Source: Anoxybacillus tengchongensis (GTDB lineage Bacteria > Bacillota > Bacilli > Bacillales > Anoxybacillaceae). Taken from it: a DNA stretch of 64,000 bases. Positions 1 to 4,818 of the stretch are shown here, piece by piece. Location: assembly GCF_014201585.1 (NCBI RefSeq), contig NZ_JACHES010000005.1:70248-134247 (forward strand), written 5' to 3'. Under the pieces are notes generated by a model. It made no database searches, was not told where the DNA came from, and saw only the letters and a list, made by a program, of their open reading frames with translations. Each line of letters starts with the position of its first letter. Positions within the stretch are counted from its first letter, which is position 1. Made by a program: the position numbers and the translations under genes.

Positions 1-608
1 AAGAGGCGGATAGCGTCATTATTGCTGTTCCGCATCAATCATTGACATCGCTTTTTCCAAATGAAACGATGTTTTCTTCTTTTGAAACGATGCCATCTAC
101 GTCTGTTGCAACGGTCGCATTAGCGTTTCCGAAAGAAGCGGTAGCGAAAGATATGAACGGGACAGGGTTTGTCGTCTCACGCGATAGCGACTATACGATT
201 ACCGCATGTACGTGGACGCATAAAAAATGGCCACATACGACACCAGAAGGGTACGTTTTGTTGCGTTGTTACGTCGGTCGACCTGGTGATGAAGCGATTG
301 TTGATCAAACAGACGACGATATCGTCCAAGTCGTGATGGACGATTTGAATAAAGTGATGAATATGACGATGAATCCGATGTTTTCGATTGTGACGCGCTG
401 GAAACAATCGATGCCGCAATACACGGTCGGTCATCGTGAACGAATTGAGCGCGTGAAACAAGATATGCAACAACATCTTCCAGGCGTCTTTTTAGCAGGA
501 AGTTCGTATGAAGGTCTTGGGCTTCCAGATTGTATCGATCAAGGAGAAGAAGCGGTAAAAAAAGTGTTACATTATTTAGCTTATACGAAAGAAAAGGTGT
601 CATTATAA
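1..608 (+). CDS. hemY: Protoporphyrinogen/coproporphyrinogen oxidase, C-terminal part (cut by window start)
   Basis: The reading frame is open from the window edge (first full codon at position 3), so only about the last 200 residues are present. They match the C-terminal half of the FAD-dependent HemY oxidase of haem synthesis. The end contains the typical flavin-binding stretch with the residues LAGSSYEGLGLPDCI followed by a helix. HemY removes six electrons from the porphyrinogen ring at the membrane surface. Assignment is supported by the next two genes, which follow hemY in B. subtilis as well (yhgD, yhgE). The gene ends inside a terminator hairpin. The start and the N-terminal Rossmann motif are outside the window. 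Confidence 0.9.
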   Translation, partial: EADSVIIAVPHQSLTSLFPNETMFSSFETMPSTSVATVALAFPKEAVAKDMNGTGFVVSRDSDYTITACTWTHKKWPHTTPEGYVLLRCYVGRPGDEAIVDQTDDDIVQVVMDDLNKVMNMTMNPMFSIVTRWKQSMPQYTVGHRERIERVKQDMQQHLPGVFLAGSSYEGLGLPDCIDQGEEAVKKVLHYLAYTKEKVSL

Positions 609-627
609 TATTAGGCACCTTTTTTTC
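592..627 (+). terminator. Rho-independent terminator of hemY
   Basis: An A-rich arm with AAAAGGTG pairs with CACCTTTT, and a run of T residues follows. The hemY stop codon lies in the loop, so the hairpin overlaps the end of the coding region. Confidence 0.7.
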
Positions 628-656
628 TTGAAAACATATGTCCATTATGATAAGAT
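628..656 (+). promoter_or_regulatory. Sigma-A promoter of the TetR regulator gene yhgD
   Basis: TTGAAA at 628-633 and TAAGAT at 651-656 are separated by 17 bases. Transcription would begin near 663, immediately before the palindromic operator at 668-690, which suggests autorepression. Confidence 0.7.
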
Positions 657-667
657 GTAAAACGAAA

Positions 668-690
668 TGACCAAAATGTTCATTTAGTCA
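668..690 (+). promoter_or_regulatory. Predicted TetR operator, copy 1
   Basis: This is a 23-base imperfect palindrome with outer half-sites TGACCAAA and TTTAGTCA. A second copy in reverse orientation lies at 1305-1327, in front of yhgE, and matches at 21 of 23 positions. The location just downstream of the promoter start and the duplication around a TetR gene make it the likely YhgD binding site. The function is inferred. Confidence 0.65.
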
Positions 691-709
691 TAAAAAAGGA
701 TGAACGCCT

Positions 710-1282
710 ATGTCAGAAAAAAGAAAACAAATTATTGAAGCGGCAACGAAGTCGTTTTCGCTTTTTGGTTATAAAGCAACGACGATGGATCAAGTGGCGA
801 AAATGGCGAATGTCGGAAAAGGAACGATTTATACGTTTTTCAAAAGCAAAGAAGAGCTGCTAGAAGACATCGTTTCTTCTATCATTTCTGAAATTAAGCG
901 TGAGGCAGATGCCGCGATTGATCACCGCTTATCGTTTAATGAAAATGTGCAACGTGCTTTGCAACGCATTTTTACGTTTCGCAAAGAACATGAATTGACG
1001 ATTAAGCTGTTACAAGAAGTGCGCGATATCGGCACGCCAGCTGTACGTGATGTGATGAAGCGGCTTGATCGTGAAATGATTGCTTACGTTCGTGAAAAAA
1101 TAGAAGAGGCGATGGCAAAAGGGGAAATCCGTTCGTGTGATCCCGAATTAACAGCATTTTTAATGTTTAAAATGTATATTGCTTTAAACGTTGATTGGGA
1201 AAAAGAACATGAACCATTACCGCAACAAAAAATAGCTGAACTGTTTGATTTGTATTTATTAAAAGGATTATCTCGACGATGA
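710..1282 (+). CDS. yhgD: TetR/AcrR-family transcriptional regulator (YhgD-like)
   Basis: This 190-residue protein has a TetR-type helix-turn-helix at roughly residues 10-55, including the conserved stretch ATTMDQVAKMANVGKGTIYT that defines the family. The rest is an all-helical ligand-binding and dimerisation domain. It lies between hemY and yhgE as in B. subtilis. Two near-identical palindromes flank the gene at 668-690 and 1305-1327, so it probably represses itself and yhgE. The inducer is unknown. The ATG at 710 is preceded by AAAGGATG, and a sigma-A promoter lies 50 bases upstream. Confidence 0.88.
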   Translation: MSEKRKQIIEAATKSFSLFGYKATTMDQVAKMANVGKGTIYTFFKSKEELLEDIVSSIISEIKREADAAIDHRLSFNENVQRALQRIFTFRKEHELTIKLLQEVRDIGTPAVRDVMKRLDREMIAYVREKIEEAMAKGEIRSCDPELTAFLMFKMYIALNVDWEKEHEPLPQQKIAELFDLYLLKGLSRR

Positions 1283-1304
1283 TCCTTCTCTTTTTTGCAA
1301 GAAA

Positions 1305-1327
1305 TGACTAAATGAACAAATTGGTCA
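1305..1327 (+). promoter_or_regulatory. Predicted TetR operator, copy 2
   Basis: The reverse complement of this 23-base palindrome matches the operator at 668-690 at 21 of 23 positions. It lies in the 71-base gap between yhgD and yhgE and so could control yhgE separately. I could not place a convincing promoter around it. Confidence 0.6.
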
Positions 1328-1353
1328 ATATTTTTTAAAAGGGGGTTGAGCAT

Positions 1354-3663
1354 ATGCATACATTCCGATTATTGATGCAAGAAATTAAAGCGGTCACGTC
1401 CAATCGGAAAGTGCTTATTCCGGTTATCGCTGTCTTATTTATCCCGCTTTTATATAGTGGTATGTTTTTATGGGCGTTTTGGGATCCGTACGATCATTTA
1501 GACGATTTACCTGTCGCTATTGTCAATCATGACAAAGGCGCGACATTTGAAGGGGAAGAACTTCATATTGGTGACGATCTCGTTGACAAGTTAAAAGAAA
1601 AAAAACAGTTTGATTGGCATTTTGTAAGCCAACGTGAAGGGGAAAAAGGATTAAAAGAACAACGGTATTATATGCTTATTGAAATTCCAGAAGATTTTTC
1701 AAAAAACGCAACGACGTTACAAGATAATCATCCGAAAAAGCTTCAACTTATTTACAAGCCAAATGAAGGATTTAACTTTTTATCTGCCCAAATCGGTGGA
1801 ACAGCGGTTGAAAGAATTAAAACAGAAGTAGCAAAAACATTAACGGAAACGTACGCAGAAAACATGTTTGAGAGCGTAAAAACGTTGGCAGATGGATTAA
1901 CGAAGGCGAGCGACGGAGCAAAACAATTGCATGACGGACTGATGGATGCAAAAGAAGGAACGAATAAGCTATATGATGGAATGAAAAAAGCACAAGATGG
2001 CTCCGATGAATTGTATCGCCATTTAGAAACGCTTGCAGAAAAATCCATTACATTTACGAACGGCTTGCATAAAGTAGCTGACGGTTCAATGCAAGTTCAA
2101 ACTGGTGTTCAAACGCTTCATGACGGGATGAAGCGCATGGTAGATGGGCAAGGACAATTGCTTGCGGGAGCACAGCAAACAAAAGAAGGGACAACGAAAC
2201 TGGCTTCAGGTGCAAATCGTGTGCTTGAAGGAATGAAAGCACTCGATGCTCGTATGCCACAGCTTTTACAAGGTTCAGAACAATTAAGTGGCGGAGCGGA
2301 AAAATTAGCTACGTCGCTTGCCAAGTGGCGACAAGGAGCGTCACAAGTTCAAACAGGTGCAACACAAGTGACAGGTGGGTTAGAGCAGTTAGCTGCACAA
2401 CTTGATGAGCTTATTGCGCAAACGTCAGACCCGATGCAAAAAGCCGTATATGAGCAGTTCAAACAAAATGTTGAGCGATTATCACTAGGAAGCAAACAAG
2501 TAGAAACAGGTGTTGCACAGTTAAATGATGGTGCTCAAGCGTTACAAGCAGGGGCGACGTCTTTAAGCGAAGGGGCAAAGAAGCTACATGAAGGGCATAC
2601 GGCTCTTGATAGCGGCGTAAACCAACTGCTTGCTGGGCAACAACAACTCACTGATGGGGCAAATGCGTTAGTGAACGGGCAAGAACAGCTTGTTTCGGGC
2701 ATGAATACGTTACATGAAAAAATGAAAGAAGCGGAGCAAGGAACAGCGAAACTAGCAAATGGTAGTCAAACACTTACTTCTGGTTTGCAAGCTCTTGCGA
2801 ATGGAGGCGACCAACTGCAAGACGGTGCGCATCGGTTAGCGGATGGTGCACAACAATTAGCGAACGGAATGAATGAACTAACGAATGGTACAGAAAAATT
2901 ACAAGATGGAATGAATCAGCTTTCGGATGGTTCAGGAGAACTAGCAGATAAATTAAATGAAGGTGCCAAAAAAGCAAGCGACGTCAAAGCAAACGAAGAC
3001 GTATATAACATGTTTGCTGAACCGGTGAAAGTAAAAAATGAAAGAATCAATGAAGTGCCAAACTACGGAACAGGATTTACACCATATTTCTTGTCATTAG
3101 GATTGTTTGTTGGGGCGCTTTTACTTTCGATCGTCTTTCCGCTCCGTGAACCAGCTGGGGTGCCACGCTCACCGTTTCAATGGTTTTTTGCGAAATTTGG
3201 TGTACTCATTGGTGTAGGTGTGTTACAAGCACTCCTTGCCGATAGCGTATTGCTTTTTGGGCTCGATTTACAAGTGAAAAGCGTTCCGTTATTCATTTTA
3301 TTTAGCGTGGTGACAAGCATTGCCTTTTTATCAGTCATTCAATTTCTCGTGACTGTTTTTGGTGACCCAGGGCGATTTATCGGGATTGTCGTCTTAATTT
3401 TACAATTGACAACAAGTGCCGGAACGTTCCCGCTTGAATTAATTCCACGTGCGTTGCAACATTTTAACGCATGGCTTCCAATGACATATTCTGTTTTCGG
3501 ATTAAAAGCGGTCATTTCAAGCGGCGACTTCTCGTTTATGTGGGAAAACGTCGGAAAGTTGCTCATGTTTATTGTTGTGATGATGGCGGGAACGCTAACG
3601 TATTTTACAATCCAACATCGTCGCCAATTTACAACAATTGTAGAACAAGCTTCTGAAGCGTAA
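1354..3663 (+). CDS. yhgE: YhgE/Pip-family membrane protein
   Basis: This 769-residue protein has the YhgE/Pip layout: one N-terminal membrane helix (about residues 20-42), a long extracytoplasmic region, and about five membrane helices after residue 575, with an ABC-2-like C-terminal part. The central region (about 170-545) is built from many short degenerate repeats of the type L-x-D/N/S/A-G-x-x-x-L, predicting a long helical stalk. Relatives include a lactococcal phage-infection protein and proteins linked to type VII secretion. The actual function is unknown. The regulator YhgD and a shared operator precede it. The ATG at 1354 has an AAAGGGGG ribosome site. Confidence 0.85.
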   Translation: MHTFRLLMQEIKAVTSNRKVLIPVIAVLFIPLLYSGMFLWAFWDPYDHLDDLPVAIVNHDKGATFEGEELHIGDDLVDKLKEKKQFDWHFVSQREGEKGLKEQRYYMLIEIPEDFSKNATTLQDNHPKKLQLIYKPNEGFNFLSAQIGGTAVERIKTEVAKTLTETYAENMFESVKTLADGLTKASDGAKQLHDGLMDAKEGTNKLYDGMKKAQDGSDELYRHLETLAEKSITFTNGLHKVADGSMQVQTGVQTLHDGMKRMVDGQGQLLAGAQQTKEGTTKLASGANRVLEGMKALDARMPQLLQGSEQLSGGAEKLATSLAKWRQGASQVQTGATQVTGGLEQLAAQLDELIAQTSDPMQKAVYEQFKQNVERLSLGSKQVETGVAQLNDGAQALQAGATSLSEGAKKLHEGHTALDSGVNQLLAGQQQLTDGANALVNGQEQLVSGMNTLHEKMKEAEQGTAKLANGSQTLTSGLQALANGGDQLQDGAHRLADGAQQLANGMNELTNGTEKLQDGMNQLSDGSGELADKLNEGAKKASDVKANEDVYNMFAEPVKVKNERINEVPNYGTGFTPYFLSLGLFVGALLLSIVFPLREPAGVPRSPFQWFFAKFGVLIGVGVLQALLADSVLLFGLDLQVKSVPLFILFSVVTSIAFLSVIQFLVTVFGDPGRFIGIVVLILQLTTSAGTFPLELIPRALQHFNAWLPMTYSVFGLKAVISSGDFSFMWENVGKLLMFIVVMMAGTLTYFTIQHRRQFTTIVEQASEA

Positions 3664-3798: not shown

Positions 3799-4818
3799 AT
3801 GGCGACGATTGAAGATGTCGCCAAGCTAACAGGGCTTTCACGGACGACGATTTCGCGCGTCATAAACAATCACCCGTACGTGTCAGAAGAGAAACGAAAG
3901 CTCGTGCTTGAAGCGATGGAGAAGTTAGGATATGTACCTAATTCATCGGCGAGAAGTTTGCGAAATCAAAAAACAAGTATTTTAGCGCTATTTATTCCGC
4001 GAATTACAAATCCGTTTTTTAGTGAGCTTGTAGAAGCGACGGAAATCGCAGCAGCGGAACATGGCTACCAGCTTATTATTTGCCAGACTCGCTATTCGCC
4101 GGAAAAAGAATTAAACTATATGAATTTATTGAAAACGAAACAAGTTGACGGGGTTATTTTGGCTTCCATTCAAAATGAATGGAAAAAGTTAAAACCTTTT
4201 TTACAATATGGGCCGATTGTTCTTTGTAATGAGTTTGATGACTGTGCAAACGTTCCAACCGTTCGGCTCGACCAAGTGTATGGGGGATACATAGCAACGA
4301 AACATTTACTTGAACGCGGGCATACGAAAATTGCTTATTGTTCTGGTGGCTATCGGAGCAATGTCGCACAATCGCGAGAAATCGGTTTTAAAAAAGCGCT
4401 AGCAGAATATAAACTGACATTCGATGAACGGTACGCGTTTCGTGATGTGTTTCACATCGCGGATGGAAAGCGCGTATTTCATCAAATGATGGCGCTTTCG
4501 GAGAGACCGACTGCTGTATTTACCGGAAGCGATGAAGTGGCGGCTGGCATTATATCTGAAGCGTTAAGATGTGGCTATCGCATCCCTGAAGATTTAGCTG
4601 TTGTTGGCTTTGACAATCAAGCGATTACCGAGCTAACGAATCCGACAATTACAACTGTACATCAACCAGTCAAACAAATGGCACAAAAAGCAGTGGATAT
4701 TATTGTGGAGAAAATTCAGACAAAAAAATATGAAGTGAAAGAAATTTACGAATTTCCACTTCAGCTTATTGTGCGCGCATCGACAGTGGGTAGCGAGCTT
4801 CATGAAAGTGAAGCTTGA
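3799..4818 (+). CDS. LacI-family transcriptional regulator of the alpha-glucoside operon
   Basis: This 339-residue protein has the LacI helix-turn-helix at residues 2-25 (TIEDVAKLTGLSRTTISRVI), the hinge helix with the SSARSLR segment, and a periplasmic-binding-like sugar domain (about 60-330). It is the first gene of an operon encoding an oligosaccharide ABC importer and a GH13 glucosidase. It therefore probably senses maltose, isomaltose or a related glucoside and represses the promoter at 3712-3740. The ATG at 3799 lies 8 bases after an AAGGGGG ribosome site. It resembles MalR-type regulators, but the ligand is inferred from its neighbours. Confidence 0.88.
   Translation: MATIEDVAKLTGLSRTTISRVINNHPYVSEEKRKLVLEAMEKLGYVPNSSARSLRNQKTSILALFIPRITNPFFSELVEATEIAAAEHGYQLIICQTRYSPEKELNYMNLLKTKQVDGVILASIQNEWKKLKPFLQYGPIVLCNEFDDCANVPTVRLDQVYGGYIATKHLLERGHTKIAYCSGGYRSNVAQSREIGFKKALAEYKLTFDERYAFRDVFHIADGKRVFHQMMALSERPTAVFTGSDEVAAGIISEALRCGYRIPEDLAVVGFDNQAITELTNPTITTVHQPVKQMAQKAVDIIVEKIQTKKYEVKEIYEFPLQLIVRASTVGSELHESEA

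Follow-up and report, generated by a model that had tools for sequence, protein, structure and literature searches.

In the genome of Anoxybacillus tengchongensis, a TetR-family regulator gene, yhgD, and the membrane-protein gene that follows it, yhgE, are each preceded by a copy of the same 23-bp dyad, O1 and O2 respectively, and both copies are very likely operators of YhgD. The second copy is tied in position to a predicted intrinsic terminator lying between the two genes. This terminator-operator composite is kept across Bacilli, with lineage-specific hairpin sequences and, in some loci, as head-to-tail duplicates. The reading preferred here, with a probability of about one half, is that YhgD represses its own promoter at O1, that a roadblock at O2 tightens the terminator, and that yhgE is expressed by regulated read-through. 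Of these findings, the tie between the second operator and the terminator holds the greater interest. The locus lies at the start of the window, i.e., the whole 64,000-nucleotide stretch of DNA that was analysed, and comprises the following features:

3 to 608, plus strand: 3' portion of hemY (protoporphyrinogen oxidase), truncated where the window begins; TIGR00562, 182 bits (cut-off 97.85).
593 to 626, plus strand: hairpin and T-run (AAAGGTG...CACC, then the T-run), about 40 bp before O1; found by eye.
628 to 656, plus strand: yhgD promoter TTGAAA-17-TAAGAT, with a TG ahead of the -10; promoter score 11.0.
668 to 690, plus strand: O1, candidate YhgD operator 1, TGACCAAAATGTTCATTTAGTCA, in the yhgD leader; from motif and conservation.
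710 to 1282, plus strand: yhgD, TetR-family regulator of 190 aa; PF00440, 58.9 bits (cut-off 24), and PF17932, 29.5 bits (cut-off 26.4).
1263 to 1287, plus strand: terminator-like hairpin with a 10-bp stem and a 5-nt loop, overlapping the yhgD stop codon; from the hairpin scan, conserved in relatives.
1288 to 1296, plus strand: terminator T-tract CTCTTTTTT, ending 8 nt ahead of O2; from sequence and hairpin scan.
1305 to 1327, minus strand: O2, candidate YhgD operator 2, TGACTAAATGAACAAATTGGTCA (plus-strand letters), reversed relative to O1; from motif and conservation.
1341 to 1345, plus strand: Shine-Dalgarno-like GGGGG of yhgE; seen in the sequence.
1354 to 3663, plus strand: yhgE, YhgE/Pip-family membrane protein of 769 aa; TIGR03062, 231.1 bits, and TIGR03061, 222.2 bits, both above cut-off.

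The genes hemY, yhgD, and yhgE lie in this order on the same strand, which continues from position 3799 with frames whose translations read like those of a LacI-type regulator and of sugar-transport proteins. The hairpin at 593-626, unlisted in the hairpin scan because its loop exceeds the limit of that scan, probably marks the end of the hemY transcript. YhgD carries an N-terminal TetR helix-turn-helix domain above the curated cut-off (PF00440), and the solved structures that it matches by sequence are distant TetR relatives (best 6azh, E 2.4e-15). In YhgE, both terminal domains and heptad repeats were found. O1 starts 12 bp past the last base of the -10 hexamer of the yhgD promoter, and would span approximately +6 to +28 if transcription starts 7 nt past the -10. 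Ahead of O2, the hairpin is immediately followed by the T-tract, which is the signature of an intrinsic terminator.

The initial annotation had described the two 23-bp sites as agreeing at 21 of 23 positions once one of them is reverse complemented, one after the yhgD promoter and the other ahead of yhgE, and each of these observations was reproduced. The motif search that it had proposed, with TGACYAAA-N7-TTTRGTCA, retrieves O1 exactly and O2 with one mismatch, and these are the sole places with zero or one mismatch in the 2.73-Mb genome. Within the window alone, two matches at up to three mismatches are not significant (shuffled sequences gave a mean of 1.25, and at least two matches in 41 of 100); significance is, therefore, drawn from the whole genome and from relatives, and a chance origin of the pair is ruled out by its conservation despite the figure for the window. 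With the looser pattern TGACY-N13-RGTCA, five places are found in the genome, against one for the control. Those other than O1 and O2 (L004, in a carB-like frame, L213, and L214) all fall within long open frames. A wider YhgD regulon is thereby ruled out for this genome at this stringency. The three-mismatch list, with 42 places, is no longer than the 46 of the reversed control pattern, and inspection covered its best places. The list includes L003, which has two mismatches and overlaps the initiation codon of a MATE-like transporter frame, and L005, likewise with two (here, as for carB, names come from reading translations).

Conservation was assessed at two depths. All 41 family genomes contain a match to YhgD (E below 5e-79), and the DNA around 47 family matches (L016-L062), the window's own locus included, was read. 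In all 45 orthologous family loci, O1 and O2 occupy the same positions, with at most two (O1) and three (O2) mismatches to TGACYAAA-N7-TTTRGTCA. O2 was not found in the remaining two of the 47 (L061 and L062), which represent a diverged yhgDE paralogue, about 40-43% identical; these show a different dyad-like sequence upstream and a short gap without a second site. A further 150 loci were then added, namely the best 80 of 531 relatives in named genomes and 70 from class genomes, 132 of 398 of which have a match at E 1e-30 or better and were the source of 30 loci and of 40 hand-picked ones. The resulting set of 197 loci across Bacilli is partly redundant, with some genomes present twice; it holds O1 (TGACY-N13-RGTCA within 160 nt ahead of yhgD) in 190 loci, O2 in 172, and both in 170. 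Removing loci whose surroundings are at least 75% identical left 127 O1 and 99 O2 sites. The motif is thus present ahead of both yhgD and yhgE in most relatives, where its absence would have spoken against the proposed regulator site, and this presence, together with the conserved opposite orientation, supports a precise candidate YhgD operator.

The opposite orientation of O2, already noted in the initial annotation, is a real and conserved property. A matrix built from the O1 sites of other clades and applied over 39 bp scores O2 higher in the reversed orientation at 94 of the 99 non-redundant loci (22/22, 52/56, and 20/21 by clade), and at 92 of 99 with the core alone. When the two sites of one locus are compared simply by identity, the reversed alignment is the better in 78 of 97 cases and the worse in 14, with 5 ties. 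The flanks alone give no signal in the closest clade (10 reversed versus 12 direct), and favour the reversed fit in the other two (43 versus 12 and 16 versus 5). The wider operator consensus is TGACYR-N11-YRGTCA, the inner TGTTCA being found mainly in the window's family and its near relatives. The half-site TGACYAAATGA is strongly kept, with the TG at O2 positions 8-9 (counted from 0) present in 95% and 92%. At 19 bp, the outer arms are far apart for a single TetR dimer. For this reason, we infer that two YhgD dimers may bind each operator, of which the 23-bp dyad with its additional inner TGA is suggestive.

The two operators differ sharply in what precedes them. With a hand-written sigma-A-like matrix, a promoter score of at least 8 is reached ahead of O1 in 64% of 97 loci, as against 6% of 96 ahead of O2, and, in 89 of the 93 loci scoring at least 6, the -10 ends 10 to 17 nt ahead of O1. 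The sequence ahead of O1 folds no more stably than its shuffles (median z 0.1, n=97), and a run of at least four T ends 6-13 nt ahead of it in only 29 of 127 loci. Ahead of O2, the nearest such run ends at this distance in 84 of the 99 non-redundant loci, while 200 shuffles gave a mean of 10.5 loci and a largest value of 20. The median distance of the T-run end from O2 in relatives is 9 nt, and the hairpin most often ends 16-17 nt ahead. In the other 15 loci, the T-run ends at 0 (one), 14 (two), or 43-48 nt (seven), or is absent (five). The hairpin itself is evident from a median z of -3.1 (n=99), compared with 0.2 in the coding control (n=99), and a closed hairpin at or below -5 kcal/mol ends 11-22 nt ahead of O2 in 91 loci, the other eight lacking one.

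Hairpin sequences vary between lineages: 17 of the 91 are not of the common sequence type, and these belong to several types. Stem variation in the 71 hairpins of the Bacillaceae type consists of one-sided A-U/G-U changes, two-sided changes being confined to single loci and to the outermost pair. Where yhgD and yhgE are 100-400 nt apart, a T-run still ends 7-13 nt ahead of a site in 18 of 19 non-redundant loci, against a background of 121 in 1995 positions (6.1%); terminator and operator stay together there, the operator being up to 111 nt away from yhgE. Compact spacing alone, therefore, does not explain the terminator-operator link. Because homology links most of the Bacillaceae hairpins, and because the long-gap set includes several close relatives, these hairpin and spacing counts do not represent independent events, and that set amounts to fewer than 19 independent cases. 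Two O2 copies occur in twelve loci, eleven of which (L087, L090, L097, L099, L124, L131, L133, and L140 among them) have the copies 41-44 bp apart, i.e., about four helical turns, L180 having a different arrangement. In these eleven, the T-run end is 9 nt ahead of the second copy in eight, 11 nt in one, and 3 and 51 nt in two. The first copy, with the T-run that follows it, may itself form the hairpin of a second terminator.

Loci in which the two genes lie apart offer a comparison. In five genomes (L110, L113, L115, L121, and L122; three of Peribacillus and two of Bacillus sp.), O1 is present ahead of yhgD, yhgE lies elsewhere, and the stretch 3' of yhgD holds neither yhgE nor O2. The best-matching distant yhgE of these five genomes has the operator 13 nt past a strong promoter, TTGATA-17-TATATT; their other yhgE paralogues whose upstream DNA was read have no operator within 300 nt. 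For this reading of unlinked yhgE genes, 20 loci were taken, two of which were not readable in frame. In G353, yhgE is also unlinked, with no O2 after yhgD, and is preceded by a weaker promoter (7.7) and two operators. Altogether, a promoter score of at least 8 is found at five of six unlinked yhgE genes. Genomes G432-G436 each hold five to seven YhgE/Pip N-terminal family matches and, among those with upstream DNA read, a YhgD-type operator precedes the best match alone.

The initial annotation had suggested independent control of regulator and target. This suggestion is supported only in part. Operators do stand ahead of both genes, but a promoter of the yhgD type is rare before O2, which is tied to a terminator at a fixed distance instead of to a comparable promoter. 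This arrangement suggests that the two genes are controlled together by read-through, or that O2 conceals a weak promoter. The conserved terminator-O2 spacing, the promoter contrast, and the unlinked yhgE with its own promoter favour read-through, as does L215, where yhgD has become a remnant but the elements from its promoter through O2 to yhgE persist. In such a scheme, YhgD bound at O1, just past the yhgD promoter, would block initiation or escape, resulting in autorepression. After transcribing the terminator hairpin that closes yhgD, polymerase would then collide with YhgD on O2; the roadblock would keep polymerase in the T-tract, increasing termination and leaving yhgE off. Inducer would free YhgD, so that the yhgD promoter fires and polymerase passes the weaker, bare terminator into yhgE. 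We infer, then, YhgD binding to both sites, a polymerase stop at O2, and arrival at yhgE by read-through; the regulator could leak, while the target would be locked twice. The position of O2 fits a roadblock downstream of a promoter if yhgE is transcribed from that of yhgD. The broader formulation, a ligand-responsive intrinsic terminator whose switch is a DNA-bound TetR repressor, not RNA, and in which an operator about 9 bp past the T-tract makes a leaky terminator tight, falls somewhat short of even odds. Several observations run against read-through. The T-run spacing of 6-13 nt fails in 15 of 99 loci, and the hairpin in eight. The geometry would also be tight: in yeast, polymerase halts 15 bp short of the bound protein, whereas in bacterial termination it has usually cleared the hairpin by roughly 8 nt (PMC12366685), and a polymerase stopped 15 bp before O2 would not be that far clear of it.

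The main rival holds that O2 overlaps a yhgE promoter, with the end of the T-tract as -35, a CAAAAT-like hexamer within O2 as -10, and a start just past O2. YhgD would then cover this promoter and repress yhgE directly, the terminator merely ending the yhgD transcript, which is the independent control of the initial annotation. We consider this plausible, but less likely than read-through. A promoter-like match of at least 8 anywhere before the yhgE ribosome site, found in 20% of 96 or 19 of 99 loci, counts for it and against read-through. A -10 at site position 12 has the best mean score of the ten offsets listed and the largest share of loci at 6 or more (17%), and the -10-like CAAAAT recurs at O2 positions 12-17, the part in which O2 and O1 diverge. 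The sequence there is CAAT-T in the five unlinked yhgE sites of the Peribacillus type, whose promoter is a different one. O2 is indeed A-rich at positions 13-16 (window 1318-1321) in most relatives, mostly AAAA compared with AATT in the reversed O1; this might alternatively serve to prevent an RNA hairpin from forming next to the ribosome site. In the -10, however, the critical last T is replaced by C in 20% of loci, about as often as G occurs at the mirror position (21%), which indicates no constraint beyond that on the operator, and the first T is present in only 18%. Regarding the -35, shuffling the nine bases ahead of O2 slightly lowers its score (P 0.04), but swapping them between loci does not (P 1.0), and there is no clear GACA preference after the TT of the T-tract. 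In the window's own yhgDE locus, the best match by the same hand-written matrix scores 5.9 and is located elsewhere, whereas the yhgD promoter reaches 11.0.

It is improbable that O2 is an ordinary elongation roadblock of the CcpA/CodY type, with the closeness of the terminator being incidental or only shielding the operator from traffic. Repressor roadblocks are known in B. subtilis, and O2 is kept in some loci without T-run or hairpin, but an incidental neighbourhood fits poorly with the T-run spacing kept in long gaps with differing hairpins (18/19 versus 6%) and in most duplicated modules (8/11). Binding of a regulator other than YhgD to the paired sites can be given very little weight: the putative YhgD sites accompany yhgD and yhgE, unlinked yhgE included, and no site lies outside open frames elsewhere in this genome at this stringency.

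Autoregulated TetR-family repressors with a neighbouring membrane-protein target are known from systems of the QacR, AcrR, and TetR type. The yhgDE locus resembles them in its TetR_N domain, a dyad at the regulator's own promoter, and a second operator ahead of the target. It differs in that both genes lie on the same strand with a terminator-like hairpin between them, to which the second operator is tied, and in its 23-bp dyad with an additional inner TGA. As regards the YhgE/Pip family (TIGR03061/TIGR03062), YhgE has both terminal domains and the heptad repeats, and the point of difference is the regulation, not the type of protein.

Repressor roadblocks have been described for CcpA and CodY in B. 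subtilis and for LacI in E. coli (PMC10310618, PMC4132739). There, as in yhgDE provided that the yhgD promoter also serves yhgE, the repressor site lies in the transcribed region past the promoter, whereas O2 comes after a complete intrinsic-terminator signature at a fixed spacing. Yeast Pol I is halted 15 bp upstream of a Reb1 or Nsi1 site, and an RNA hairpin then drives release (PMC12366685). The two systems would share an RNA hairpin, a T-rich stretch, and a DNA-bound protein about one polymerase half-length further on; that of yeast is the standing end of rRNA transcription, whereas in yhgDE a bacterial repressor would control the next gene, and the hairpin is closer. H-NS filaments, which are reported to pause polymerase and aid termination, are likewise a DNA-bound bacterial protein helping termination, but that work concerns pausing and Rho-dependent sites, not a sequence-specific repressor behind an intrinsic terminator (PMC4337669). 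In yhgDE, unlike in the systems compared, a sequence-specific repressor site is tied to what reads as an intrinsic terminator separating the regulator from its target. A search of the roadblock, collision, and Pol I literature, as far as its texts were accessible, found no bacterial repressor-tightened intrinsic terminator, which is not proof of absence.

For a regulator that is widespread and little studied, and for its conserved membrane-protein target, the operator supplies a precise DNA site open to experimental test. Should the link to the terminator prove functional, it would constitute a bacterial counterpart of roadblock-plus-hairpin Pol I termination, and a compact means of combining a leaky regulator with a tightly-off target. 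The terminator-operator spacing is, moreover, a searchable signature for other such switches. Within the portions of the literature that were available, no report of a YhgD operator was found. Earlier studies describe yhgD as 9-fold repressed by glutamate in B. subtilis (PMC2743287), YhgD as a negative control for phosphorylation (PMC3814354), and yhgE as one of the genes modelled better by SigA than by SigB (PMC7824861); B. subtilis yhgD or yhgE is also mentioned in PMC5730154 and PMC3701619.

Finally, one genome (G025) shows complementary decay of duplicated yhgDE loci. At L215, yhgD is a remnant, and its decay may be recent; promoter, O1, terminator, O2, and an open yhgE frame persist. At L050, the other yhgD copy of this genome, the best adjoining yhgE match covers only the last 120 residues. 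One YhgD paralogue would, therefore, have to serve the yhgE of the other locus. The same shortened yhgE is seen at L051 and L052, whose genomes hold another yhgD locus (L028, L022) with yhgE behind it.
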